In this document: positions 189 to 20,091 of the stretch, piece by piece
Layout of the letters: every line of letters begins with the position of its first letter
Numbering within the stretch: the stretch's first letter is position 1
From: an uncultured Oscillospiraceae bacterium
GTDB lineage: Bacteria; Bacillota_A; Clostridia; Oscillospirales; Oscillospiraceae
NCBI GenBank assembly: GCA_900770015.1
Contig: CAAGIU010000331.1
Location: forward strand, 1 to 20,091
DNA: 20,091 nt
Direction: 5' to 3'
Program-made: the position numbers and the translations under genes
Notes under the pieces: generated by a model
Database searches by the model: none
What the model saw: the letters and a program-made list of their open reading frames with translations, nothing else
What the model was told of the DNA's origin: nothing

Positions 189-217
189 TTGCAATCGATA
201 CAGCGCAGTGGTATAAT
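189..217 (+). promoter_or_regulatory. Promoter of the aromatic amino acid operon
   Basis: A -35 box TTGCAA (189-194) and a perfect -10 box TATAAT (212-217) are separated by 17 bp. The -10 box is preceded by TGG, giving an extended -10. Transcription should start near 224, so the RNA carries a leader of about 195 nt before aroF. That leader holds the attenuator described below. Confidence 0.8.
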
Positions 218-246
218 TTCTGTAGTTTCCGTTGGAGGCCAAAGAA

Positions 247-315
247 ATGAACGCTGTTTCCTTTGCTGCACAGTTTTATTTTGGCTACTATTACTTTTTT
301 ACCCGGAAAAAGTAA
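247..315 (+). CDS. Phe/Tyr-rich leader peptide of the aro operon attenuator
   Basis: This 22-codon ORF has an ATG at 247 preceded by GGAGG at 234-238, and ends with TAA at 313-315. The second half reads FYFGYYYFFTRKK, so 5 Phe and 4 Tyr occur in 22 residues, with no Trp. It lies between the operon promoter and a terminator hairpin that directly precedes aroF. Such composition and position are the hallmark of ribosome-mediated attenuation, as in the enteric pheA and trp leaders. Stalling at the Tyr-Tyr-Tyr-Phe-Phe run (286-300) would report a shortage of charged tRNA-Tyr or tRNA-Phe. The amino acids match the operon content, which includes both tyrA and pheA. The peptide itself probably has no function beyond its translation. 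The ORF and its composition are seen directly; the mechanism is inferred. Confidence 0.85.
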   Translation: MNAVSFAAQFYFGYYYFFTRKK

Positions 316-377
316 TAGCGATTTGTGCTGCAAAGCTTCCGACAGAAGCCAAAAATCGATTCTTTAACGCCGCACGA
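288..377 (+). promoter_or_regulatory. Alternative leader RNA hairpins (pause hairpin and antiterminator)
   Basis: A perfect 12-bp stem pairs 288-299 with 307-318 and overlaps the Tyr/Phe codons and the stop codon of the leader peptide; this is the candidate 1:2 pause hairpin. Further on, 323-335 can pair with 362-377. GTGCTGC (325-331) pairs with GCCGCAC (369-375) with one mismatch, AAAG (332-335) pairs with CTTT (362-365), and a small hairpin 335-339/345-349 lies inside. This second pairing consumes the 5' arm of the terminator and so is a candidate antiterminator. A ribosome at the stop codon 313-315 would cover roughly up to 328-330 and block it. A ribosome stalled at 286-300 would leave it free. 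Pairings were found by eye and no folding energy was computed. Confidence 0.6.
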
Positions 378-399
378 TTCGCCGTGCGGCGTTATTTTT
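366..399 (+). terminator. Attenuator terminator upstream of aroF
   Basis: A perfect 11-bp GC-rich stem (AACGCCGCACG at 366-376 with its complement at 383-393, loop of 6) is followed by TATTTTTG with five consecutive T at 395-399. It lies after the operon promoter and immediately before the aroF ribosome site, AAGGAG at 402-407. It therefore cannot be the end of an upstream gene and must act within the leader. Confidence 0.85.
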
Positions 400-418
400 G
401 TAAGGAGCTGTAAAAAAT

Positions 419-1420
419 ATGATCGCGATTCTGAAACACGGCACCACCCCCGACCAGACCTCCCATCTGGTGGATTGGCTGAAGCACATGAATCTGGATG
501 TCCACATTTCCCAGGGCCAGGAGGTCACCATTCTGGGCCTCATCGGCGATACCAGCCGGGTGGACATGGAGCTGCTGAACAGTCTGGAAATTGTGGAGAG
601 CGTCAAGCGGGTGTCCGAGCCCTTCAAGCAGGCAAACCGGAAGTTCCATCCCCAGGACTCCGTCATCGAAGCCGGCGGCACCAGAATCGGCGGCGGTTAT
701 TTCGGCATGATTGCCGGCCCCTGCTCCGTGGAGAGTGAGGAGCAGATCATCGGAGTGGCAATGGCTGTCAAGGAGGCCGGAGCTAACTTCCTCCGGGGCG
801 GCGCCTTCAAGCCCCGCACCTCTCCCTACGCCTTCCAGGGCATGGGCGCCGAGGGCATCCAGCTGCTGCTGAAGGCCAAGGAGGCCACGGGACTGCCCAT
901 TGTCACGGAGCTGATGAACATCAACACCCTGGATTTGTTTGACGATGTGGACGTGATTCAGGTGGGCGCCCGGAATATGCAGAATTTTGACCTGCTGAAG
1001 GAAGTGGGCAAGACCAGAAAGCCCATCCTCTTAAAGCGCGGCCTGGCCAATACCCTGCAGGAGCTGCTGATGAGCGCGGAATACATCATGAGCGAGGGCA
1101 ATGAGAACGTCATCCTCTGCGAGCGGGGCATCCGCACCTTTGAAACCGCCACCAGAAACACCCTGGATCTGTCCTGCGTCCCGGTGCTCCATGAGCTGAG
1201 CCACCTGCCGGTGGTCATCGACCCCAGCCATGCCACCGGAAAATCCCGGCTGGTGCCCTCCATGGCCTATGCTGCCGCTGCCTGCGGCGCCGACGGCCTG
1301 ATGATCGAGGTGCACAACAACCCCGAACGTGCCCTGTGCGACGGCGCCCAGTCCCTGACCCCTGCCCAGTTTGAAGAAGTCAGCCGCAAGGTGCAGCAGA
1401 TCCGTGAGGTTATGGTATGA
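419..1420 (+). CDS. aroF: 3-deoxy-7-phosphoheptulonate (DAHP) synthase
   Basis: Condenses phosphoenolpyruvate and erythrose-4-phosphate to DAHP, the first committed step of the shikimate pathway, in the cytoplasm. The 333-residue protein has an N-terminal ferredoxin-like (ACT-like) domain at about 1-75, as in the Thermotoga type Ibeta enzyme, then the TIM barrel. Visible motifs are AGPCSVES (99-106, with metal-ligand Cys102), KPRTSPYAFQG (131-141), DPSHATG (268-274) and IEVH (296-299). The N-terminal domain suggests feedback inhibition by Tyr or Phe; that is family knowledge. The start is the ATG after AAGGAG (402-407). It is the first structural gene after the attenuator, and its stop overlaps the tyrA start (ATGA). 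The symbol could equally be aroG or aroA(G) in other nomenclatures. Confidence 0.95.
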   Translation: MIAILKHGTTPDQTSHLVDWLKHMNLDVHISQGQEVTILGLIGDTSRVDMELLNSLEIVESVKRVSEPFKQANRKFHPQDSVIEAGGTRIGGGYFGMIAGPCSVESEEQIIGVAMAVKEAGANFLRGGAFKPRTSPYAFQGMGAEGIQLLLKAKEATGLPIVTELMNINTLDLFDDVDVIQVGARNMQNFDLLKEVGKTRKPILLKRGLANTLQELLMSAEYIMSEGNENVILCERGIRTFETATRNTLDLSCVPVLHELSHLPVVIDPSHATGKSRLVPSMAYAAAACGADGLMIEVHNNPERALCDGAQSLTPAQFEEVSRKVQQIREVMV

Positions 1421-2256
1421 TTGTTGGAATTTTGGGCCTGGGCCTCATCGGCGGCTCTCTGGCCAGAGCCTATAAGCTGGCGGGTCACACGGTTTATGTG
1501 AAAAACCGGGACGAGCAGATGCTGCGCTTTGCCATGCTCTCCGGCGCCGTGGACGGCAGGCTGGACGAAACCACCGTCCCCCAGTGCGATCTTCTGCTGC
1601 TGGCCATCTATCCCAAGGGCTGTGCCGACTGGCTGGAGGAAAATGCCCCTCTGGTCAGCCGGGATGCTCTCGTCATCGACTGCTGCGGCATCAAGCAGGA
1701 GGTCTGCGCCCGGTGCTTCCCCCTTGCGGAGCAGTATGGCTTCACCTTTGTGGGCGGTCACCCCATGGCAGGCTCCCAGTTCTCCGGCTTCAAGTACAGC
1801 CGGGCGACCCTGTTCCAGGGAGCGCCCATGGTGCTGGTGCCGCCCAAGTACGACGATATGGCGCTGCTGCAGCGGGTGAAGGATGTGCTTGCCCCCTGCG
1901 GCTTCGGCTTCTTCTCCGTCACCACGGCGGCGGATCACGACCGGATGATCGCCTTCACTTCTCAAATGCCCCACATTCTGAGCAATGCATTTATCAAGTC
2001 CCCCACCGCATTGGAGCACAAGGGCTTCTCCGCCGGAAGCTACCGGGACCTGACCCGGGTGGCCTGGCTGAACGCGGGCATGTGGACAGAGCTGTTCCTG
2101 GAAAACCGGGAGAATCTGCTCTTTGAGCTGGATCAGTATATCGGCAGCCTCACCGCCTATCGGGATGCGCTGCAGGAACGGGATGCCGACCGGCTCTATC
2201 GGCTGCTGGACGAGGGCAAACGCCGGAAGGAAGAGGTGGACGGATGCAAAAAGTAA
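1417..2256 (+). CDS. tyrA: Prephenate dehydrogenase
   Basis: Oxidatively decarboxylates prephenate to 4-hydroxyphenylpyruvate with NAD(P)+, the committed step to tyrosine. The 279-aa protein opens with a Rossmann motif GLGLIGGSLA (7-16). Further on it has GGHPMAGS, with the conserved His of the family, and a helical C-terminal domain with SAGSYRDLTR and WTELFLENR. No C-terminal ACT domain and no fused chorismate mutase are present, so Tyr feedback on this enzyme is not evident. The chorismate mutase activity it needs is supplied by pheA in the same operon. Translation is coupled to aroF by the ATGA overlap at 1417-1420, and the gene overlaps aroB by 13 bp. Confidence 0.94.
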   Translation: MIVGILGLGLIGGSLARAYKLAGHTVYVKNRDEQMLRFAMLSGAVDGRLDETTVPQCDLLLLAIYPKGCADWLEENAPLVSRDALVIDCCGIKQEVCARCFPLAEQYGFTFVGGHPMAGSQFSGFKYSRATLFQGAPMVLVPPKYDDMALLQRVKDVLAPCGFGFFSVTTAADHDRMIAFTSQMPHILSNAFIKSPTALEHKGFSAGSYRDLTRVAWLNAGMWTELFLENRENLLFELDQYIGSLTAYRDALQERDADRLYRLLDEGKRRKEEVDGCKK

Positions 2257-3296
2257 CCGTGAACGCCTCCCGCTCCTATGACATCCTCATCGGCAGCGGC
2301 CTGCTGGCGACCCTGGGAGCCGAGGCGCGGAAATTCCCCAAGGTGAAAAAGGTCTGCATTGTCAGCGAGACCAATGTCTATCCCCGCCACGGTTCTGCTG
2401 CCGAGCAGAGCCTGCGGGATGCGGGCTTTGAGGTCGTTTCTTATGTCTTCCCCGCAGGCGAAGAGAGCAAGTGCGGCGCAACGTATCTGGATCTGCTGAA
2501 TTTCCTGGCCCAAAACCAGCTGACCCGCTCGGATCTGCTGGTGGCTCTGGGCGGCGGCGTTGTGGGTGACCTGACGGGCTTTGCCGCGGCCACCTTCCTG
2601 CGGGGAGTGAAATTCATCCAGGTGCCCACCACCCTGCTGGCGGCGGTGGATTCCTCCGTGGGCGGCAAGACCGCCATCGATCTGCCTGCGGGAAAAAATC
2701 TGGCGGGGGCATTCTACCAGCCCAGTCTGGTGCTCTGCGATACCGATACCCTGAAAACCCTGCCGGAGGATATCTTCCGGGACGGCTGTGCCGAGGTCAT
2801 CAAGTACGGCGTGATCTACGACCGGGCATTCTTCGACTATCTGACCCAGGCGGGACCGGATTTTGACCGGGAGGCCGTCATCCGCCGCTGCGTGGAGCTG
2901 AAGCGGGATGTGGTGATGCAGGACGAATTTGACACCGGCGAGCGGATGAAGCTGAATCTGGGTCACACCATCGGCCACGGCGTGGAGGCCAGGAGCCATT
3001 TCGGCCTGTCCCACGGAAAATCCGTCGCCATCGGCATGGCCATGGTCTGCCGGGCCGCCGCGAAAAACGGCATGCTCTCTCCGGAGGATGCCCAAAAAGT
3101 GGAGGCTACCCTCTGCGCCTACGGTCTGCCCGTGAGGACGGAGTACCCGGCGGATGAAATCCTGAGCTATATGCTCTCCGACAAGAAGCGCTCCGGCGGC
3201 ACCGTTCCGCTGATTATCCCCACTGCCATCGGCCGCTGTGACATCGTCCCCACCCCGGTGGAAGAACTGAAAGCCTTTGTTGAAGCAGGAATCTGA
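2244..3296 (+). CDS. aroB: 3-dehydroquinate synthase
   Basis: Converts DAHP to 3-dehydroquinate, using catalytic NAD+ and a divalent metal (step 2 of the shikimate pathway). At 350 aa it has the family's usual length. Seen are the nucleotide-binding GGGVVGD (103-109), PTTLLAAVDSSVGGKTAID (128-146) and the candidate metal ligands Glu184 (CAEVIKYG), His in NLGHTIGHGVEA (238-249) and His257 (LSHG). The ATG lies inside the end of tyrA, 13 bp before its end, which implies translational coupling. The gene ends one base before the aroA start. Confidence 0.96.
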   Translation: MQKVTVNASRSYDILIGSGLLATLGAEARKFPKVKKVCIVSETNVYPRHGSAAEQSLRDAGFEVVSYVFPAGEESKCGATYLDLLNFLAQNQLTRSDLLVALGGGVVGDLTGFAAATFLRGVKFIQVPTTLLAAVDSSVGGKTAIDLPAGKNLAGAFYQPSLVLCDTDTLKTLPEDIFRDGCAEVIKYGVIYDRAFFDYLTQAGPDFDREAVIRRCVELKRDVVMQDEFDTGERMKLNLGHTIGHGVEARSHFGLSHGKSVAIGMAMVCRAAAKNGMLSPEDAQKVEATLCAYGLPVRTEYPADEILSYMLSDKKRSGGTVPLIIPTAIGRCDIVPTPVEELKAFVEAGI

Positions 3297-3297
3297 T

Positions 3298-4494
3298 ATG
3301 GATATTACCATCACACCCCGAAAACTCCACGGCCACATCACGGCCATCCCCTCCAAATCCCAGGCCCACCGGCTGCTGATCTGCGCCGCCTTTGCAGAGC
3401 ACGAAACCACCCTTCGCTGCCCGGATACCAACCGGGACATCGAAGCCACCGCCGAGTGCCTGCGATCTCTTGGCGCCAAAATCCAGCGGACGGAAGAAGG
3501 CTACACGGTTTTCCCAATCCAATCCATTCCGACCTCCGCCGTGCTTCCCTGTCACGACAGCGGCTCCACGCTGCGGTTCCTGCTGCCGGTGGCGGGTGCC
3601 CTGGGGGTGGACACGGTGTTTCAGATGGAGGGCAGACTCCCCCAGCGCCCCCTTTCCCCCATGTGGGAGGAGATGGAGCGGATGGGCTGCCGGCTCTCCA
3701 GACCCACGGAAACAACCATTCGCTGTCAGGGCAGACTTTCCCCCGGCACCTTCACCATCAGCGGCGGCGTTTCCAGCCAGTTCATCACGGGGCTGCTGCT
3801 GGCCTGCGCCCTGATTCCCGGGAAAAGCCGAATTGAAATCACCGGGAAATTGGAATCTGCCCCCTATGTGACCATGACCCTGCGGGCCATGGAGATATTC
3901 GGACTGCCGTGCGAGGATTTCACTGTGCACGGCGGAAAGGGCTTTTCTTCTCCCGGGAAACTCACTGTGGAGGGCGATTGGAGCAACGGCGCCTTCTTCC
4001 TGGCGGCAAAGGCGCTGGGAAGCGGCGTGGAAGTGGAGAATCTCTCCCCGGATTCCCCTCAGGGCGACCGGGCGGCGGCGGAGCTGCTGCCGGGTCTATC
4101 CGATAATCTGACCATTGATGCCTCCGACATTCCCGATCTGGTTCCCATTCTGGCCGTCATCGCCGCCTGCAAGCGGGGTGCTAAATTTACCAACATCGCC
4201 CGGCTGCGGCTGAAGGAATCCGACCGGGTGGAGTCCGTCCTTGCCATGCTCCGCAGTCTGGGCGGCAGGGCCGAGGCGGACGAAACCACCATGACCGTCT
4301 TCGGCACCGGGCTGGTTGGCGGCACGGTGGATGCCAGAAACGACCACCGCATCGCCATGTCCGCCGCCATCGCCGCCACGGTGTGCACCGAAAACGTCAC
4401 CATTCTGGGAGCGGAGTGTGTCCAGAAATCCTATCCCCAATTCTTTGAAGAATACCGAAAACTGGGAGGTTGCTATGAGCAGTACCTACGGTGA
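3298..4494 (+). CDS. aroA: 3-phosphoshikimate 1-carboxyvinyltransferase (EPSP synthase)
   Basis: Transfers the enolpyruvyl group of PEP to shikimate-3-phosphate, giving EPSP. The 398-residue protein carries SKSQAHR (19-25), DSGSTLRFL (87-95), EGRLPQRPLSP (111-121), GGVSSQFITG (156-165), LKESDRVES and NDHRIAMSAA, which together cover the substrate-binding loops of both domains. DSGSTLRF replaces the GNAGTxxR loop of class I (E. coli-like) enzymes, which is common in Firmicutes. I chose ATG 3298, one base after the aroB stop and after AGCAGGA, rather than an in-frame TTG at 3277 that lies inside aroB. The 3' end overlaps aroC by 20 bp. Confidence 0.95.
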   Translation: MDITITPRKLHGHITAIPSKSQAHRLLICAAFAEHETTLRCPDTNRDIEATAECLRSLGAKIQRTEEGYTVFPIQSIPTSAVLPCHDSGSTLRFLLPVAGALGVDTVFQMEGRLPQRPLSPMWEEMERMGCRLSRPTETTIRCQGRLSPGTFTISGGVSSQFITGLLLACALIPGKSRIEITGKLESAPYVTMTLRAMEIFGLPCEDFTVHGGKGFSSPGKLTVEGDWSNGAFFLAAKALGSGVEVENLSPDSPQGDRAAAELLPGLSDNLTIDASDIPDLVPILAVIAACKRGAKFTNIARLRLKESDRVESVLAMLRSLGGRAEADETTMTVFGTGLVGGTVDARNDHRIAMSAAIAATVCTENVTILGAECVQKSYPQFFEEYRKLGGCYEQYLR

Positions 4495-5554
4495 ACATTT
4501 GAAATTGTCCATTTTCGGCCAGTCCCACGGCGCTGCCATCGGCATGACCCTGGACGGCATCCCCGCGGGACTTCCCGTGGACGAGGCTGTGCTGCAGGAA
4601 TTCCTCAACCGCCGGGCACCGGGGCAGAATGACTGGTCCACCCCCCGCAAGGAAGAGGACCGGCCGGAATTTCTAAGCGGTGTGCTGAACGGTTTCACCT
4701 GCGGCGCGCCCATTGCCGCCATCATCCGCAACAAAAATACCCGCTCCGGGGACTATGCCAATCTCATGGACTGCCCCCGGCCCGGCCACGCCGATTACAC
4801 CGCCCAGATCAAATACGGCGGCTATCAGGACGTATCCGGCGGCGGCCATTTCTCCGGCCGGCTGACGGCACCGCTGTGCATTGCGGGAGGCCTCTGCAAG
4901 CAGTGGCTGGAAGAATATGGCATCCGGGTGGGCGCCCACATCGCCGCCATTGCCGGGGTGCAGGACGCGGCGTTTGACCCGATGCATCCACAACTGGATG
5001 CCGTGGGCACCGATTTTCCCGTATTGAACGCCGAAGCCGGAGCCAAAATGCGGGAGGCGGTTTCCGCAGCCCGGATGGACCTGGACAGCGTGGGCGGCGT
5101 CATCGAGTGCGCCGTCACGGGACTGCCCGCAGGACTGGGCGAACCCATGTTCGGCGGTGTGGAAGGACGGATTGCCCAGATCGTCTACGGCATTCCCGCT
5201 GTTAAGGGCGTGGAATTCGGCATCGGCTTTGCGACGGCTGCCCTCCGGGGAAGCCAGAATAACGACGATTTCCGCATGGAGGACGGCAAGGTGGTCACTG
5301 CCACCAACCACTGCGGCGGAATCCTGGGCGGCATCACCAGCGGTATGCCCCTGCTGTTCCGGGCGGCATTCAAGCCCACCCCCTCCATCTCCCGGCCCCA
5401 GCAGAGCGTGTCGCTTTCCCAGGGCGAAAACCGGGATCTGGTGGTGAAGGGCCGTCACGACCCCTGCATCGTCCCCCGGGCGGTGCCGGTGGTGGAGGCC
5501 GCTGCCGCCATCGCCATTTTTGACCTGCTGCTGCAAAACGGCTGGAAGAGATAA
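4475..5554 (+). CDS. aroC: Chorismate synthase
   Basis: Eliminates phosphate from EPSP to give chorismate; the family uses reduced FMN. The 359-aa protein shows FGQSHGAAIG (14-23, with His18), RPGHADY (102-108, with His105), SGGGHFSGRLTAP (121-133), GSQNNDDF, GGILGGITSGMPL and RHDPCIVPRAVPVVEA. The first motif has Gln where many homologues have Glu (FGESHG), and SGGGHFSGR replaces the commoner SGGGRxSAR. Both are, from memory, usual in clostridial AroC. The start is ATG 4475, five bases after GGGAGG (4464-4469), inside the end of aroA. This is the last gene before the MITE interruption. Confidence 0.95.
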   Translation: MSSTYGEHLKLSIFGQSHGAAIGMTLDGIPAGLPVDEAVLQEFLNRRAPGQNDWSTPRKEEDRPEFLSGVLNGFTCGAPIAAIIRNKNTRSGDYANLMDCPRPGHADYTAQIKYGGYQDVSGGGHFSGRLTAPLCIAGGLCKQWLEEYGIRVGAHIAAIAGVQDAAFDPMHPQLDAVGTDFPVLNAEAGAKMREAVSAARMDLDSVGGVIECAVTGLPAGLGEPMFGGVEGRIAQIVYGIPAVKGVEFGIGFATAALRGSQNNDDFRMEDGKVVTATNHCGGILGGITSGMPLLFRAAFKPTPSISRPQQSVSLSQGENRDLVVKGRHDPCIVPRAVPVVEAAAAIAIFDLLLQNGWKR

Positions 5555-5597
5555 AAAAACAACCCTGCTGCAAATTGGAATTTGGCGATGTTTTTTT
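5554..5597 (+). terminator. Weak terminator-like palindrome after aroC
   Basis: AAAAAACA (5554-5561) can pair with TGTTTTTT (5589-5596), with CAAATT/AATTTG inside (5571-5576/5579-5584), and a run of seven T follows at 5591-5597. The stem is AT-rich with large internal loops, so it is a poor intrinsic terminator by eye. If it works, expression of pheA and the genes beyond it would be reduced relative to aroF-aroC. Confidence 0.3.
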
Positions 5598-5606
5598 GCC
5601 CAGCCA

Positions 5607-5754
5607 CTGTAGGGGAGGATAGTATCCTCCCGCGCGGTGTAACCCGATTTGACCCGAAACGTTGGGCGAATCCGTACCGCGTCTCATGTGATACCATTCA
5701 ACGAAACATGCGAAAAAATGTTATGTGGCGGGAGGATGATATCCTCCCCTACAG
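5607..5754. mobile_element. MITE-like element, copy 1, between aroC and pheA
   Basis: The ends are inverted repeats, CTGTAGGGGAGGAT at the left and ATCCTCCCCTACAG at the right, and each end is itself a small palindrome (GGGAGGAT-ATCCTCCC). The interior carries GTTGGGCGAA and CATTCAACGAAACA. Copies with the same ends and interior words lie at 9808-9951 (inverted orientation) and from 19988 to the window edge (same orientation). The length of 148 bp and absence of coding capacity fit a non-autonomous miniature element. No target duplication could be assigned. Similarity to copy 2 extends leftward into the flanking GCCCAGCCA, so the true boundary may be about 10 bp outside. Confidence 0.75.
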
Positions 5755-5822
5755 CAGCGGAGAAGTTTTTTAATCAACGATCCGGAAACCGATCAAGCAA
5801 AACAAAAGGAAGAAGGAGCCTC

Positions 5823-6965
5823 ATGGATATTACCGAACTGAGAGCCGAGATTGATAAAATCGATGAAGAATTGGTGAAGCTGTTCTGCGCCCGGATGGAA
5901 ATTAGCGCCAAAGTGGCGGACTACAAGCGGGAGCGGAATCTGCCAATCTTCGTGCCCGCCCGGGAGCGGGAGATTCTGCAGACCATGGCGGAAAAGGCCG
6001 GCCCTGAGATGGCGGGCTATACCAGAAGCCTCTACTCCACCATTTTTGAGCTGAGCCGCAGCTATCAGGCCAAGCGGAACGGCCACCAGACGCCGCTGTA
6101 CCATGCCATCACCCAGGCCATCGAGAATACTCCCAAGCTCTTTCCCCAGGCACCCATGGTGGCCTGTCAGGGTGTGGAGGGGGCCTACTCCCAGCTGGCC
6201 TGTGAAAAAATTTTCAAAAGCCCCATGATTCTCTACTTCAAGAATTTTGATGCGGTGTTCTCCGCCATCGAGCAGGGCATGTGCCAGTACGGCATCCTGC
6301 CCATTGAGAATTCCACGGCAGGCTCCGTCAACCAGGTCTATGACCTGATGATCCAGCACAATTTCTCCATCGTCCGCACCTTCCGCCTGAAGGTGGACCA
6401 CAACCTGCTGGCAAACCCCGGTGTAAAGCTGGGGGACATCCGGGAAGTTTACTCCCACGAGCAGGCCATCAGCCAGTGCAGCGGTTTCTTAAGCAAGCTG
6501 CCCGGGGTGAATGTGGTTGCCGTTGCCAACACGGCGGTGGCGGCGGAAATGGTGGCGAAATCCGGACGGAAGGATGTGGCGGCCCTCAGCAGCCGCTCCT
6601 GTGCCCAGCTCTACGGTCTAGAAAATCTGGCTTCCTCCGTGCAGGACAAGGGCAACAACCGCACCCGGTTTATCTGCATCAGCAAAAATCTGGAAATCTA
6701 CCCCGGCTCGGACAAGACCAGCATCATGATGATCCTGAACCACAAGCCCGGCGCGCTGTACAAGGTGCTGGCGCGGCTCTATACCCTGGGCATCAACGTG
6801 ACCAAGCTGGAATCGAGGCCCCTGCCGGACCGGGAATTTGAGTTTATGTTCTACTTTGACCTGGAAACCTCCATCTATTCCGGGGAATTCGTGCAGCTGA
6901 TGTGCGAATTGGAGGATTTCTGCGAGGAATTCAAGTATCTGGGCAGCTATACAGAGGTGGTTTAA
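5823..6965 (+). CDS. pheA: Bifunctional chorismate mutase / prephenate dehydratase (P-protein)
   Basis: Converts chorismate to prephenate and then to phenylpyruvate, the committed Phe branch; its mutase also feeds TyrA. Domains in the 380 residues are an AroQ-class chorismate mutase (about 1-85, starting MDITELRAEIDKIDEELV), prephenate dehydratase (about 113-287, with GVEGAYSQ, LPIENSTAGSVN, SHEQAISQC and the catalytic TRF at 281-283), and a regulatory ACT domain (about 299-375, with GAL at 310-312 and ESRP at 330-333). The GAL and ESRP motifs are the Phe-binding signatures, so feedback inhibition by Phe is expected. I chose ATG 5823, four bases after AAGGAG (5813-5818). A longer in-frame reading back to 5649 runs through the MITE and has no ribosome site. 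The next gene begins immediately at 6966. Confidence 0.95.
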   Translation: MDITELRAEIDKIDEELVKLFCARMEISAKVADYKRERNLPIFVPAREREILQTMAEKAGPEMAGYTRSLYSTIFELSRSYQAKRNGHQTPLYHAITQAIENTPKLFPQAPMVACQGVEGAYSQLACEKIFKSPMILYFKNFDAVFSAIEQGMCQYGILPIENSTAGSVNQVYDLMIQHNFSIVRTFRLKVDHNLLANPGVKLGDIREVYSHEQAISQCSGFLSKLPGVNVVAVANTAVAAEMVAKSGRKDVAALSSRSCAQLYGLENLASSVQDKGNNRTRFICISKNLEIYPGSDKTSIMMILNHKPGALYKVLARLYTLGINVTKLESRPLPDREFEFMFYFDLETSIYSGEFVQLMCELEDFCEEFKYLGSYTEVV

Positions 6966-8186
6966 ATGCAGTGCGGACTTCTCGGGCGGAAGCTGGGTCA
7001 CAGCTATTCTCCGCAGATCCATTCCCATCTGGCGTCCTACGAGTATACCCTTTTTGAAAAGGAGCCGGAGGAGCTGGAAGCTTTTCTGAAAAACGGCAGC
7101 TTCACCGGTCTCAACGTGACGATCCCCTATAAAAAGGATGTGATTCCCTACCTGGACGAGCTTTCCCCCACGGCGAAGCGGCTGGGGGCGGTGAACACCA
7201 TTGTCCGGCGGGAAGACGGCAGCCTCATCGGCCACAACACCGATTACTTCGGCTTCCGCTCCATGGTGCTCAGAAGCGGGCTGGCTGTGGCGGGGAAAAA
7301 GGGGCTGGTGCTGGGCAGCGGCGGCGCTTCCAATACGGCGGTGGCCGCATTGGAGGAAATGGGCGCTCAGGTTGTGGTGATCTCCCGCTCCGGGGAGAAC
7401 AATTATGACAACCTGCACCTTAACGCCGATGCCGCCGTCATCGTCAATACCACCCCGGTGGGCATGTATCCCAAAACCGGGGTCAGCCCCATCAGCCTGG
7501 AGCGGTTCCAAAAGCTGGAGGGCGTACTGGATGTGGTGTACAATCCTGCCAGAACACAGCTGCTGCTGGACGCGGAAAGCCGGGGCCTGATTGCCATGAA
7601 CGGCCTTTGGATGCTGGTGGCCCAGGCCAAGGAAAGCGCCGAATGGTTTGCCGGGATGCAGATTCCCGACGGGAAAATCGCCAAAATCCACGGCCTTCTC
7701 CGCGCGCAGATGGAAAACATCATCCTCATCGGAATGCCCGGCTGCGGCAAGACCACCGTGGGGCAGGCTCTGGCAACCATGCAGGGCAAGCGCTTTGTGG
7801 ATGCCGATGCCGTCCTGGAAGAGCGGGTGGGCAGGAAGATTACCGACATCATCCCCACCGACGGCGAGGAAGCGTTCCGGCAGATGGAAACCGACACCCT
7901 GGCGGAGCTGGGAAAGCAGAGCGGCCTGGTCATCGCCACCGGCGGCGGCTGCGTCACCCGGGAGCGGAACTACCCGCTGCTGCACCAGAATGGCACCATC
8001 CTCTGGCTGACCCGGGACCTGAATAAGCTGCCCACCCACGGGCGGCCCCTCTCCCAGACGGGGAAGCTGCAGCAGATGTATGCAGTCAGAGAGCCCATGT
8101 ACCGGCGCTTTGCCGATGCCGTTATCTCCAACGACGCTGCGGTGGAGCAGACCATTGCCCAAATCTGCGCCTTGCAGGAAACATAA
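6966..8186 (+). CDS. aroE-aroK: Shikimate dehydrogenase - shikimate kinase fusion
   Basis: A single 406-residue protein combining two shikimate steps. Residues 1-248 are shikimate dehydrogenase, with GHSYSP for shikimate binding (11-16), the catalytic Lys in TIPYKKD (K56 or K57), GAVNTI (75-80), NTD (91-93) and the nucleotide loop LGSGGAS (116-122). Residues 249-406 are shikimate kinase, with a Walker A GMPGCGKTT (256-264), DADAV for shikimate and Mg binding (279-283), TGGGCV (325-330) and REPMYRRFAD (375-384). No ribosome site or stop lies at the junction near 7710, although the kinase half begins with an in-frame Met (249). The dehydrogenase part is short, because the stretch after the nucleotide loop is compressed. 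The gene starts at the base after the pheA stop. Confidence 0.93.
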   Translation: MQCGLLGRKLGHSYSPQIHSHLASYEYTLFEKEPEELEAFLKNGSFTGLNVTIPYKKDVIPYLDELSPTAKRLGAVNTIVRREDGSLIGHNTDYFGFRSMVLRSGLAVAGKKGLVLGSGGASNTAVAALEEMGAQVVVISRSGENNYDNLHLNADAAVIVNTTPVGMYPKTGVSPISLERFQKLEGVLDVVYNPARTQLLLDAESRGLIAMNGLWMLVAQAKESAEWFAGMQIPDGKIAKIHGLLRAQMENIILIGMPGCGKTTVGQALATMQGKRFVDADAVLEERVGRKITDIIPTDGEEAFRQMETDTLAELGKQSGLVIATGGGCVTRERNYPLLHQNGTILWLTRDLNKLPTHGRPLSQTGKLQQMYAVREPMYRRFADAVISNDAAVEQTIAQICALQET

Positions 8187-8201: not shown

Positions 8202-8642
8202 ATGAAAATTCTCGTCATCAACGGCCCCAACCTCAACTTTCTGGGCATTCGGGAGCCGGGTATTTACGGAAAAAACACCTTCGCCGATCTGCTGACCATG
8301 CTGGACGCCTGGGGCAAAGACCTGGGGGTTGAGGTGGAGCAGTACCAGTCCAACCACGAGGGCGACCTGGTGGACAAGATCCAGTGGGCCTACGGCAGGG
8401 TGGACGGCATCGTCATCAATCCCGCCGCCTATACCCACACCAGCGTAGCCATTCTGGATGCGCTGAAGGCCGTGTCCATTCCCGCGGTGGAGGTGCACAT
8501 CTCCGATGTGGATTCCAGAGAAGCCTTCCGGCAGGTTTCCTATGCGGGTCTTGCCTGCAAACACACCATCAAGGGTCAGGGTTTTGACGGCTACCGTCAG
8601 GCCATGGTCTGGCTGGTGGAGCACTACGGAAGCAAATCATGA
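8202..8642 (+). CDS. aroQ: Type II 3-dehydroquinate dehydratase
   Basis: Dehydrates 3-dehydroquinate to 3-dehydroshikimate (step 3). At 146 aa it has the length of the dodecameric type II enzyme, which is unrelated to AroD. Motifs are INGPNLNFLGIREPGIYG (6-23, with the catalytic Tyr22), QSNHEGDLVD (49-58), NPAAYTHTS (73-81) and EVHISD (97-102, with the catalytic His99). Most homologues read NPGAYTHTS or NPGALTHTS. The start is ATG 8202, eight bases after AGGAGG (8188-8193). The stop overlaps the next gene by ATGA, coupling their translation. Confidence 0.96.
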   Translation: MKILVINGPNLNFLGIREPGIYGKNTFADLLTMLDAWGKDLGVEVEQYQSNHEGDLVDKIQWAYGRVDGIVINPAAYTHTSVAILDALKAVSIPAVEVHISDVDSREAFRQVSYAGLACKHTIKGQGFDGYRQAMVWLVEHYGSKS

Positions 8643-9739
8643 ACATCCCTGTGATCCGCTCCTCCATGCCGCCCATGGAGGAATACATGGCGGAAATCGC
8701 CCCCCTGTGGGAGAGCCGGTATCTGTCCAACCACGGCGAAAAGGCGCGGGAGCTGGAGCGCCGGGCGGCGGAATATCTGGGAGCAGACCATGCCGTCAGC
8801 GCCGTCAACGGGCATCAGGCTCTGGAGCTCATCCTGCAGGCCATGGAGCTGAAGGGTGAGGTGATTACCACGCCGTTTACCTTCGTCTCCACCGTGGCCG
8901 CCATTGTCCGTTGCGGCCTGACCCCGGTGTTCTGCGACATCCGGGAGGATGACTGCACCCTGGACCCGGAGAAGCTCGAGGGGCTCATCACGGAGAAAAC
9001 CTGCGCCATATTGCCGGTGCATGTCTATGGCAATTTCTGCCGGGTGGAGGAAATCGACGCCATTGCGAAAAAGCATGGTCTGAAGGTCATCTATGATTCG
9101 GCCCATGCCTTCGGAGCCACATACCGGGGGCAGGGGGCAGGCAGCTTCGGCGATGCTTCCATGTTCAGTTTCCACGCCACCAAGGCTTTCCACAGCGCGG
9201 AGGGCGGTCTGGTGACCTGTCGGGATGCGCATCTGACGGATGCGCTGTGGCAGCTGCAGAATTTCGGCCTCAGCGGTGCGGCAGATGTGCAGCGGGTGGC
9301 GGGAAACGCCAAAATGAACGAATTCTCCGCCGCCATGGGCCTGTGCAACCTGCGGCACCTGGGTGAATACCTGGAAGGCCGGAAACGGGCATATCTGCAA
9401 TACCTGTCCCGGCTGGATGGAATCCGGGGCGTGAGGCTCAACCGGTTTGCCGGGGGCGTGGAGCCGAACTACACCTATTTCCCGGTTTGGATTGACCCGG
9501 AGGAAGCGGGCTTCAGCAGGGACGATCTGGCAGAGGAGCTGGAAAAACACGGCATCGGCAGCAGAAAGTATTTCTCCCCGGCGGTCTGCGACATGGAGCC
9601 TTACCGCAAATACGACCGGGGACAGACCCCCATCGCCAGGAAAGCCGCCTCCCAGGTACTGACGCTTCCCATGTACGCGGAGCTGACGCAGACAGAAGTG
9701 GATGAAATCTGCGATGTGATTCTGAAGCTGTGCAAATAA
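8639..9739 (+). CDS. DegT/DnrJ/EryC1/StrS-family PLP aminotransferase
   Basis: A 366-residue fold-type I PLP enzyme. Signatures seen are NGHQALELIL (57-66), VYDSAHAFGA (150-159, with Asp153 for the pyridine nitrogen) and SFHATKAFHSAEGG (177-190, with Lys182 as the likely Schiff-base lysine). The family mostly transaminates nucleotide-linked keto-sugars, and one branch contains 3-amino-5-hydroxybenzoate (AHBA) synthase, which acts on a shikimate-type ring. It overlaps aroQ by 4 bp and is the last gene before a strong terminator, so it is expressed with the whole aromatic pathway. No glycosyltransferase or sugar-nucleotide gene is nearby. Its substrate cannot be told from sequence: a sugar, a shikimate-type ketone, or even an aromatic keto acid are all conceivable, and only the family assignment is firm. 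Confidence 0.88.
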   Translation: MNIPVIRSSMPPMEEYMAEIAPLWESRYLSNHGEKARELERRAAEYLGADHAVSAVNGHQALELILQAMELKGEVITTPFTFVSTVAAIVRCGLTPVFCDIREDDCTLDPEKLEGLITEKTCAILPVHVYGNFCRVEEIDAIAKKHGLKVIYDSAHAFGATYRGQGAGSFGDASMFSFHATKAFHSAEGGLVTCRDAHLTDALWQLQNFGLSGAADVQRVAGNAKMNEFSAAMGLCNLRHLGEYLEGRKRAYLQYLSRLDGIRGVRLNRFAGGVEPNYTYFPVWIDPEEAGFSRDDLAEELEKHGIGSRKYFSPAVCDMEPYRKYDRGQTPIARKAASQVLTLPMYAELTQTEVDEICDVILKLCK

Positions 9740-9779: not shown

Positions 9780-9807
9780 GACGTGAAAAATGATTTGCCG
9801 CACCCTC

Positions 9808-9951
9808 GTAGGGGAGGCTATTAGCCTCCCGCCACGTAGGTCGCCTGCGTGTTTGGTTGAATGGGTAATTGTCCTGCTTTGTACGAATTCGCCCAACAAA
9901 GTACTTACTTGGGAAGCCCCACTGCGCGGGAGGATGATATCCTCCCCTACA
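9808..9951. mobile_element. MITE-like element, copy 2, inverted orientation
   Basis: It begins GTAGGGGAGGCTATTAGCC and ends GATGATATCCTCCCCTACA. Read on the - strand it contains GTTGGGCGAATTCGTAC and CCATTCAACCAAACA, matching the interior of copies 1 and 3. The left terminal palindrome has changed to GGGAGGCTATTAGCCTCCC with both arms altered together, which suggests selection on, or repair through, the hairpin. It lies between the convergent aro operon and the trmB operon and may serve as a 3' end for the latter. Confidence 0.75.
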
Positions 9952-9969
9952 TTGGCTGGGCAGTCCCGG

Positions 9970-16881: not shown

Positions 16882-17976
16882 TTATTTTACTTCACAGCGG
16901 AGGATCTCACCGGTTTTTTCGTTGATGGTGAGGCTCACGGTGCCGATCTGTTCCAGGACGCCGGCATCGGCGGCCTTGGTGGCGGGAGTCTTGGACACGC
17001 CGCGCAGGTATTCCAGCTTTTCCTCGGCGGTGGTGCAGTTCTCCAGCTCGTAGCCCTCCATGGCATCCATATCGGCCTTGAAGATGATGGCGGTGTAGTT
17101 CATCTCATTGCTGAGGAACTTCTTGTTGGAGTTGGTGACGGTGGTCACCAGGGTCAGATCATCATAGTCATCGGTGGCATCCAGCAGCGCCTGGGTGACT
17201 CTGGTATTGGCATCGTAGCGCTGGGTGCCCTGGGACTTGGTGATGAGGTTGGTGGTGTTGTAGTAGTAGGTCAGGTAGCCGAACAGGGCGCCGATGCTGA
17301 TCACGAACAGCACGCCCAGGGTCACCAGCTGCTTTTTGGAGAATTTCAGCGCTTCTTTTGCGTCGGCGCCGGTGTAGGTCAGACCCAGGCGGTTGGTGAT
17401 GGGAACCATGACAGACAGGAACAGGGTCAGCACCACGGACTCAATGGGGAACATGCAGATGTTCTTGATGACGCCCGGCAGTGCCAGCGCGAAGGTGTAT
17501 GCCTTGCCGCCCATGTAGATGGAGTAGTACCACATCATCAGGGGAATCTGCAGAACCATGTTGACGAACACGCAGATGCAGAAGCGGCTGAGCATGGTGC
17601 GCACGGGGGTCACCTTGGCCCGGTACAGGAACAGGGCGAAGACCACGGAGCCTGCAATCTCCTGGAACATGAAGGGGATGAAGTACACGCCGTCGGGGAC
17701 CATCAGGTAACCCAGAACGTCGGAGACGGCGGCGCAGAGGGCGGCCATCACAGGACCGAAGACCATGGCGCCCAGGGCGTTGGCCAGGAATGCGGTGTTG
17801 ATTCTCAGACCGGGGGCCAGGGGGATGGACAGCGTCTTCATGGCCACACGGACGGCGATCATCAGCGCGGCGAACACCAGAACGCGGGTGTCCCTGAGCT
17901 CCATGGCGGCATCGCGCCAGTAGGCCTTGGAGAAGGGATGGGGGTAAAGGGTGCGGGATTTTTGTGTTTTGGGCAT
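16882..17976 (-). CDS. ECF transporter S component (folate-family-like) with C-terminal extension
   Basis: The N-terminal 200 residues form an S component of an energy-coupling-factor vitamin transporter: hydrophobic segments at about 31-50, 62-90, 105-120, 132-150 and 165-192, with LRINTAFLANALGAMVFGP, SDVLGYLMVPDGVYFIPF and the general layout of folate-type (FolT-like) S components. Substrate specificity is inferred only from overall resemblance. S components are usually about 170-210 aa; this one has 364, with another membrane segment at about 217-237 and a polar tail of about 125 residues (238-364) that I do not recognise. The start is ATG 17976, eight bases after AAGGAGG. No ATPase or T component is nearby, so it would be a group II (shared module) S component. 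No promoter is visible between the ncRNA terminator and its ribosome site. Confidence 0.8.
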   Translation of the reverse strand: MPKTQKSRTLYPHPFSKAYWRDAAMELRDTRVLVFAALMIAVRVAMKTLSIPLAPGLRINTAFLANALGAMVFGPVMAALCAAVSDVLGYLMVPDGVYFIPFMFQEIAGSVVFALFLYRAKVTPVRTMLSRFCICVFVNMVLQIPLMMWYYSIYMGGKAYTFALALPGVIKNICMFPIESVVLTLFLSVMVPITNRLGLTYTGADAKEALKFSKKQLVTLGVLFVISIGALFGYLTYYYNTTNLITKSQGTQRYDANTRVTQALLDATDDYDDLTLVTTVTNSNKKFLSNEMNYTAIIFKADMDAMEGYELENCTTAEEKLEYLRGVSKTPATKAADAGVLEQIGTVSLTINEKTGEILRCEVK

Positions 17977-18044
17977 AAAAATATCCTCCTTTTTTGTAGG
18001 GGCGTCCGTGTTTGGCGGCGTGCGTGCCCAACGGCCCGGAAATG

Positions 18045-18075
18045 AAAAACCCCAGAGGGTACAATACCTCTGGGG
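18045..18075 (-). terminator. Intrinsic terminator of the candidate ncRNA / ECF leader
   Basis: CCCCAGAGG (18050-18058) and CCTCTGGGG (18067-18075) form a perfect 9-bp stem with an 8-nt loop. On the - strand it is followed directly by TTTTT. Flanking AATGAAAAA and TTTTTCATT extend the symmetry. It lies 69 bp before the ECF start codon, so it either ends an independent RNA or is the regulated terminator of the ECF leader. Confidence 0.88.
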
Positions 18076-18281
18076 AGAATTTTTCATTCACGAGTTTCCC
18101 GTGGGGAAGGGCCGGTCCATCCACCGCCAGCCGTTCGCCCAAACGAGTTTCGTTGCTACATAAAGGAGGTCATCCTATATGGCGCAGCGGGTGCGGATAC
18201 CCTATCGCGGACGAGCGTCCTTCGTCTGCCATACAACTCCCCATTCTGGCAGCACTTCACGCAGGGTTTCCTACTCTGTTC
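18045..18281 (-). ncRNA. Candidate structured noncoding RNA, about 238 nt (possibly raiA-type)
   Basis: A transcript bounded by a promoter (18288-18316) and an intrinsic terminator contains no - strand ORF with a ribosome site, but many short stems. From its 5' end these are CTGCC/GGCAG around 17 nt, GACGA/TCGTC around 7 nt, GGGT/ACCC, CATA-AGGA/TCCT-TATG with a U-U mismatch, ACGA-AAC-TCGT and CACG/CGTG. Density of hairpins and lack of coding suggest a functional RNA. Size, abundance in Firmicutes and own terminator would suit the raiA-motif RNA, a large structured RNA of unknown function, but I cannot confirm that match from memory. Alternatives are a long riboswitch controlling the downstream ECF transporter, or a divergent 6S RNA. 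I found no match to the THF, TPP, cobalamin, FMN or T-box hallmarks. Confidence 0.55.
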
Positions 18282-19887: not shown

Positions 19888-19987
19888 GGAAAATACCTCC
19901 TGGGGAATGAATAAAGAATATGTTCCTGTAAGATGACACAGCAAGCGGATAAATTGCAATTTGCAGAGCAGATTCTTGGGACCGCCA

Positions 19988-20091
19988 CTGTAGGGGAGGA
20001 TATCATCCTCCCGCGCAGGGAAAGCCCCCATAATGCAACCATGTTGGGCGAATTCGTATCCATGTCCAACATTTTCCCATTCAACCGAACA
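19988..20091. mobile_element. MITE-like element, copy 3, truncated by the right window edge
   Basis: It starts CTGTAGGGGAGGATATCATC and contains GTTGGGCGAATTCGTATCC and CCCATTCAACCGAACA, in the same order and orientation as copy 1 and reversed relative to copy 2. The right terminal repeat is outside the window. It lies upstream of the TlpA-like gene. Confidence 0.72.

Follow-up and report, generated by a model that had tools for sequence, protein, structure and literature searches.

A Phe/Tyr leader peptide and a very probable ribosome-mediated attenuator before the shikimate-Phe-Tyr operon of an uncultured Oscillospiraceae bacterium

The leader that precedes aroF in a stretch of 20,091 nucleotides from an uncultured Oscillospiraceae bacterium (contig CAAGIU010000331.1; the whole stretch is referred to as the window) is very probably a ribosome-mediated transcription attenuator. 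A sequence-only reading had interpreted this region as a Phe/Tyr leader-peptide attenuator of a shikimate-Phe-Tyr operon, with a promoter, a leader ORF with its ribosome site, a hairpin, an antiterminator and a terminator placed in that order before aroF. All parts were found in the claimed order (Table 1), and the core of the reading held in that the codons, the terminator and the complementarity of strands 2 and 3 recur in relatives. We consider it highly likely that a classical four-strand ribosome-mediated attenuator adjusts the transcription of aroF-tyrA-aroB-aroA-aroC-pheA-aroEK-aroQ to the amounts of charged tRNA-Phe and tRNA-Tyr available. The enzymes encoded in the operon lead to Phe and Tyr, and we infer that the operon is transcribed as a whole from the leader promoter.

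Table 1. Positions of the leader elements and of the genes downstream, in window coordinates
Feature	Position	Strand	Basis or remark
Promoter, sigma-70 type, TTGCAA-17 nt-TATAAT, TG before the -10 hexamer	189-217	+	pattern in sequence
Leader ribosome-site region, partner 334-350, -20.5 kcal/mol	224-240	+	folding; strong here, generally not conserved
Leader ribosome site GGAGG, 8 nt before ATG	234-238	+	sequence
Leader peptide ORF, ATG, 22 codons, MNAVSFAAQFYFGYYYFFTRKK	247-315	+	sequence; similar ORFs at aroF of relatives
Strand 1, covering codons F6-A7-A8-Q9 and the end of S5; partner 323-335, can sequester the antiterminator strand	261-273	+	folding
Predicted regulatory codons F10 Y11 F12 G13 Y14 Y15 Y16 F17 F18	274-300	+	ribosome-stall models
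Hairpin between the Tyr-Tyr-Tyr-Phe-Phe codons and the stop-codon surroundings, 288-300/306-318	288-318	+	folding
Strand 2; 320-331 pairs with 369-380 (antiterminator), 323-335 with strand 1	320-335	+	folding
Intrinsic terminator: strand 3 (5' arm, 365-376), loop, strand 4 (3' arm, 383-394), T run 395-399	365-399	+	sequence, alignment
aroF ribosome site AAGGAG	402-407	+	sequence
aroF, DAHP synthase	419-1420	+	TIGR01361
tyrA, prephenate dehydrogenase	1417-2256	+	
aroB, 3-dehydroquinate synthase	2244-3296	+	TIGR01357
aroA, EPSP synthase	3301-4494	+	start codon tentative
aroC, chorismate synthase	4478-5554	+	start codon tentative
pheA, chorismate mutase and prephenate dehydratase	5826-6965	+	start codon tentative
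aroE-aroK fusion, shikimate dehydrogenase and shikimate kinase	6966-8186	+	
aroQ, type II 3-dehydroquinate dehydratase	8202-8642	+	
DegT/DnrJ/EryC1-type aminotransferase	8639-9739	+	4-nt overlap with aroQ

Counting the codons of the leader ORF gave 5 Phe and 4 Tyr among 22, confirming the nine that had been noted before, and an ORF with at least 8 Phe/Tyr codons in 10 appeared in only 3 of 20,000 first-order Markov shuffles of positions 189-418. The leader RNA folds with a z-score of -5.6, and none of 200 shuffles folded equally well. The hairpin that involves the Tyr-Tyr-Tyr-Phe-Phe codons has 13 pairs (-13.5 kcal/mol), the antiterminator reaches -12.2 kcal/mol, and the terminator has 12 pairs at 365-394 with an energy of -21.6 kcal/mol as a hairpin and -23.7 kcal/mol as a duplex. 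In 11 of 12 near relatives, the top-ranking site at 29-48 nt ahead of the leader is a TTGCA -35 element followed by a -10-like hexamer; in the twelfth (L004) it is discernible by eye. The transcript probably starts at about position 224, and the leader ORF is presumably translated. Strand 1 and the helix 224-240/334-350 are two features that go beyond the earlier account. A palindromic stretch before the promoter (68-113, CTCCCTCAGTCAGCC...GGCTGACAGCTCCCTCCCAGAGGGAGCC) has, by eye only, the look of an interspersed repeat.

To collect relatives, we searched genome contigs with AroF and retained the best 80 of 596 confirmed relatives (61-85% identity), most of which are metagenome assemblies that carry the label Clostridia or that of a member of the class. 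Using a strict rule (ATG start, at most 50 residues, at least 6 Phe/Tyr/Trp in 10, at most 400 nt from aroF), a leader was identified at 67 of the 81 aroF loci formed by these 80 and the window, and in 63 of the 67 a terminator was present as well; searching these loci on the reverse strand yielded 1 leader and 1 with a terminator. Relatives lacking the codons or the terminator had been named beforehand as evidence against an attenuator: 63 of the 81 loci have both, but 14 are without a leader under the strict rule. With a looser rule (5 in 10, within 450 nt of aroF) we obtained 74 leaders, 68 of them with a terminator, and these 68 loci were used for the strand tests below. Under the looser rule three loci had no leader (L012, L055 and L047, the last with only 186 nt upstream), four had weak candidates only (L035, L049, L057 and L075), and at six (L036, L037, L046, L053, L059 and L074) there was no terminator matching the search pattern. 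ORFs with at least 7 Phe/Tyr in 10 residues occurred upstream of aroF in 53 of the 81 regions versus 1 of 1,356 random windows from the same loci.

For a class-wide sample, 196 genomes of the class were drawn evenly, of which 145 contained aroF matches, and the upstream sequence was examined for 147 of the 149 places listed. The strict rule identified a leader at 60 of the 147 aroF places, 52 of which had a terminator (4 and 1 on the reverse strand). The remaining 87 places include more distant paralogues, and some of them are under T-boxes.

The usual view is that Firmicutes detect a lack of amino acids through T-boxes, and Clostridia are known for T-boxes. We found T-boxes in all six of the relatives' genomes that were searched, and at 7 of 40 leaderless clostridial aroF upstream regions, a set hand-picked to include all those with a T-box-like motif. 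It is nevertheless extremely improbable that a T-box riboswitch or another aptamer is in control in the window and that the ORF is incidental: Phe/Tyr ORFs of such density exceed chance, the window contains no T-box at the gathering score, and none is listed up to E = 5 for positions 150-450. Other riboswitches were rejected on the same search, there being no Rfam match to the leader at the gathering score, with the T-box (RF00230) absent up to E = 5. Four genomes with two aroF genes (G051, L154/L191; G079, L162/L200; G131, L161/L190; G034, L212/L195) carry one copy under a T-box, and their other copy has neither a T-box at the gathering score nor a Phe/Tyr leader.

Pooling the two samples gave 115 leaders with a terminator (L111 duplicates L001), among which 108 contain at least two Phe and at least two Tyr. 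The densest 10-residue stretches of the pooled leaders hold 424 Phe, 396 Tyr and 18 Trp residues, and Trp is present in 21 of the 115 leaders. Four leaders with Trp amid Phe and Tyr (L015 at 1657-1752 with WYWYYF, from the looser set, L063, L077 and L079) hint at a sensing of all three aromatic amino acids. For the window, a response to each of Phe and Tyr is what we predict.

The composition of the peptides bears on two other explanations for the leader. Ligand-responsive leader peptides that stall the ribosome exist, TnaC being an arrest peptide that senses Trp, and the nascent chain in the ribosome tunnel could in principle act as a sensor of free Phe/Tyr or of some other ligand in place of charged tRNA. 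We regard this as very improbable since an arrest peptide is expected to keep particular residues, whereas Phe and Tyr interchange across the sample and the flanking residues vary, as judged by eye. Rather unlikely, though less so, is an attenuator that is real but responsive to only one of the two amino acids, Phe or Tyr, with the codons for the other held in place by RNA pairing. The CTATTACTTTTTT block, which pairs with the stop region, shows hardly any variation near the window, a few leaders are without one of the two residues (L056 and L077 lack Phe, L139 lacks Tyr), and the Phe-Tyr-Phe leader aroR of Corynebacterium glutamicum reportedly responds to Phe but not to Tyr (PMC11802643). Against this, Phe and Tyr are used about equally (424:396) and 108 of the 115 leaders have retained at least two of each despite widely differing peptides. 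In addition, stalls at both kinds of codons opened the modelled switch in 49 of the 68 loci, compared to 2 loci for Phe only and 3 for Tyr only; in the other 14 loci stalls at neither Phe nor Tyr exceeded the stop by 0.1.

Strand 1 is complementary to strand 2, strand 2 to strand 3 and strand 3 to strand 4, and these parts recur among the relatives. To quantify the complementarity of strands 2 and 3, we used a comparison of own pairs with those formed between loci, because shuffling each linker alone gave a weak signal (median z = -1.0; 23 of 68 loci below -1.65). Strand 2 paired with its own strand 3 by on average 2.95 kcal/mol better than the row and column means predict across the 68 loci, which are diverse in sequence, with an advantage for the own pair in 56 of them and none of 2,000 permutations as good. 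Kinship partly remains in this test and is shared by its five control pairings, which yielded mean values (kcal/mol) of +0.24 for strand 4, -0.12 for the reversed strand 3, -0.13 and -0.43 for two stretches of aroF and -0.31 for upstream DNA. Likewise, the own pair of strands 1 and 2 had the advantage in 53 of 66 loci, which was matched by none of 5,000 permutations.

An alignment of the leader across relatives, as proposed earlier, was also inspected for covariation, using a close set of 12 sequences (the window and 11 relatives). Covariation is evident for the terminator, where 6 of 12 pairs have changed on both sides, the changing pairs being the outer ones, but weak for strands 2 and 3, where 3 pairs have changed on both sides and 20 of 500 shuffles scored as high. 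The weakness of the latter among the closest sequences is explained by the near absence of variation in this pairing: TTTGTGCTGC in strand 2 and CCGCAC in strand 3 are invariant or nearly so in the 12 sequences. In the hairpin at 288-318, 9 of 13 pairs do not vary in this set. A constitutive terminator that happens to follow a short chance ORF, with no switching, would account for a terminator that is very stable and the winner at equilibrium, but hardly for the way in which the leader, the terminator and the complementarity of strands 2 and 3 recur together, and we consider such an arrangement very unlikely.

How the ribosome might set the four strands was explored by folding. In the first model the leader ribosome site is occupied and the RNA is cut after strand 3. 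Across the 68 loci, the median fraction of strand 3 paired upstream was 0.75 when the ribosome stood at the first four aromatic codons, compared with 0.48 at the stop codon and 0.40 without a ribosome; the value at the codons exceeded that at the stop by more than 0.1 in 51 loci and was lower in 4. The contrast for the window in this run was small (0.61 at the first four codons, 0.44 at the stop and 0.39 free). In a less constrained model the stalled and the free leader of the window were alike (0.41 and 0.44, with 0.19 at the stop). With a ribosome at the start codon, strand 3 pairing over the 68 loci was in that run about the same as with a codon stall (means 0.57 and 0.60; p = 0.12), and the position of the ribosome is therefore resolved mainly against the stop.

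The pairing of strands 2 and 3 in the window was then followed codon by codon. With the ribosome site occupied, its predicted value was 0.63-0.88 as long as the A-site codon lay at 274-289, did not exceed 0.18 for 292-310 and was 0.00 at the stop, whereas omission of all RNA 5' of the ribosome gave 0.63-0.88 from 274 to 310 and 0.40 at the stop. Stalls at 274-291 are thus predicted to open the switch of the window in both models tried. The earlier suggestion that a stall on the Tyr-Tyr-Tyr-Phe-Phe run frees the antiterminator agrees with these results for stalls at 274-289, but not for 292-310 if the ribosome site is occupied; the model without upstream RNA opens up to 310. It had also been suggested that a ribosome finishing at 313-315 masks positions 323-335. 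The standard footprint of a ribosome on the stop codon extends over about 296-325, which masks the start of this arm but not the rest.

When the complete 5' end was folded and a second ribosome was left out, the antiterminator reached at most 0.04 at every ribosome position in the window, because 224-240 pairs with 334-350. Folding with and without masking had been proposed previously; the pairing of strands 2 and 3 formed at stalls if the ribosome site was occupied, but not with the full 5' end. Since the switch is missing from equilibrium folds of the full leader, it must, if functional, act during transcription, like known attenuators. Likewise, inclusion of strand 4 let the terminator win at equilibrium in both states (0.91), which implies that the switch must be kinetic; equilibrium folding was for this reason rejected as proof of the switch. 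The helix of the ribosome site with 334-350 was tried as a general anti-antiterminator. It has a z-score of -3.7 in the window and -3.6 in L009, but the median over 59 loci is -0.27, with 11 below -1.65, and we do not put it forward as conserved. The leader of the window contains an ORF with a ribosome site, a run of codons for the amino acids produced, an intrinsic terminator, strand 1, and a pairing of strands 2 and 3 that is seen by comparison and in the model with the ribosome site occupied, and is absent at equilibrium with the full 5' end.

In the proposed mechanism, RNA polymerase would start at about position 224 and the leader would be loaded by a ribosome. If charged Phe- or Tyr-tRNA were short, the ribosome would stall in F10-Y15, cover strand 1 (261-273) and open the YYYFF hairpin; the free strand 2 (320-331) could then pair with 369-380 while transcription proceeds, no terminator would form and the operon would be read. 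If both tRNAs were charged, the ribosome would reach the stop codon and either strand 1 would close on strand 2 or the ribosome would cover the start of strand 2, whereupon strand 3 would pair with strand 4 and transcription would end at about position 399. Refolding of strand 1 onto strand 2 is probably a main closing route after the passage of the ribosome, beside partial masking at the stop. Expression of the operon would in this way depend on tRNA charging.

Using tblastn, the order aroF-tyrA-aroB-aroA-aroC-pheA-aroE/K-aroQ was recovered in 32 of the 55 relatives' loci with at least 8,200 nt downstream, and 27 of these 32 eight-gene loci also have the leader and terminator. Other relatives' loci lack one or more of the genes, such as tyrA in L013 and aroB in L043, or have them in a different order, as in the Lentisphaerota and Kiritimatiellota rows. 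The operon had been described as consisting of nine genes; eight of these are shared, but for the ninth, the DegT-type gene, tblastn detected no counterpart at any of the 80 loci from relatives, of which 50 extend at least 9,400 nt past the start of aroF.

Several other features of the window were recorded. The gap between aroC and pheA is about 270 nt long and contains a repeat that is present elsewhere in the window, while in the loci L001-L010 the distance from aroF to pheA is shorter by about 250-275 nt in nine of ten cases (L005 ends before pheA). This short repeat with inverted arms (GTAGGGGAGGATATCATCCTCCC-like) occurs at 5597-5760, 9794-9962 and 19984-20018, the GTAGGGGAGGATATCATCCTCCC-like copies being two with both arms and a third that consists of a single arm near the end of the window, and the copy between aroC and pheA looks like a small mobile element. 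A THF riboswitch (RF01831, 84.5 bits) is located on the minus strand at 18183-18280, upstream of a gene for a 401-residue protein (16882-18087, minus strand) in which residues 67-225 match the S components of ECF transporters; this protein may be a folate transporter that has an additional stretch at its C-terminus.

Aromatic-rich leaders with a terminator were also found before aroF in seven rows (L019, L020, L029, L044, L045, L063 and L077) that belong to Spirochaetota, Lentisphaerota, Kiritimatiellota and one neighbour. Metagenome assemblies are among the six other than L077, which is the isolate Treponema bryantii XBD1002, sits on a long branch and has a leader with Tyr and Trp and without Phe. 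The same eight-gene order as in the window is present in L020 (Treponemataceae). When the aroF tree was labelled by leader, 11 changes were counted versus a mean of 12.3 for shuffled labels (69 of 500 shuffles as low), and we therefore make no claim of a single origin for the leader. Tentatively, and with somewhat more doubt than belief, we suggest that the entire shikimate-Phe-Tyr operon is, across Clostridia, controlled to a major extent by an attenuator reading pooled Phe or Tyr tRNAs (in some lines also Trp), that it acts as an OR gate for a shortage of either tRNA, and that other phyla have acquired it together with aroF and, in at least one case, with the complete operon. If such control of the full aromatic pathway were widespread among gut Clostridia, the view of how the supply of aromatic amino acids is controlled there would change, and the leader would offer a natural test of one attenuator that reads two tRNAs at once. 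The breadth of the leader, its whole-operon setting and the rows in other phyla are what specialists might not expect.

Since such leaders have been reported earlier, the kind of control is not new. The leaders of enterobacterial pheA and pheST exert ribosome-mediated attenuation with Phe codons. They belong to other genes and to another lineage than the window (Rfam Phe_leader, RF01859), and assignment of the window to this family was rejected at 18.7 bits (E = 0.89) versus a gathering score of 55. Attenuation of pheA and pheST is named in PMC11802643. PMC2659441 lists aroF with an attenuator sensing Tyr-tRNA, after a 1980 paper; the attenuator hypothesised for enterobacterial aroF-tyrA (Camakaris et al. 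1980, as related in PMC2659441 and PMC8632094) thus concerns aroF too, but in another lineage and with Tyr-tRNA. Leader-peptide attenuators in Firmicutes, Peptostreptococcaceae included, are described for histidine in PMC9413887; these are of the same leader-peptide type but have histidine codons and precede his operons. For the Actinobacteria studied in PMC1262725, no conserved RNA element was reported for phenylalanine or tyrosine operons.

The sequence-only reading had considered that this use of attenuation may be undescribed in the lineage. The leader of the window itself was not found described in the open-licence PubMed Central literature, where most subscription papers are missing, but Stav et al. 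2019 (PMC6429828) reported two candidate uORFs that contain F and Y and precede shikimate genes, with Clostridium novyi as one of five genomes scanned. In that study, these uORFs have F and Y upstream of shikimate metabolism genes, as here, and the motifs may be the same as or related to the leader of the window. The motif uORFC-13-1, as summarized in PMC8632094, is a uORF with at least one Phe residue and a terminator upstream of aroF, with 24 representatives from Acholeplasma and environmental sequences only; it resembles the window in the Phe codon(s), terminator and position before aroF and differs in that Tyr is unmentioned in that summary. A further likeness is aroR-aroF of C. glutamicum (Neshat et al. 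2014), where a leader with Phe and Tyr before a DAHP synthase gene is subject to ribosome-mediated attenuation and, in the accounts of PMC11802643 and PMC4046766, a Phe-Tyr-Phe leader responds to Phe and not to Tyr. Whereas this actinobacterial leader is described with Phe-Tyr-Phe only, the leader of the window has nine Phe/Tyr codons and stands before an eight-gene shikimate-Phe-Tyr operon.
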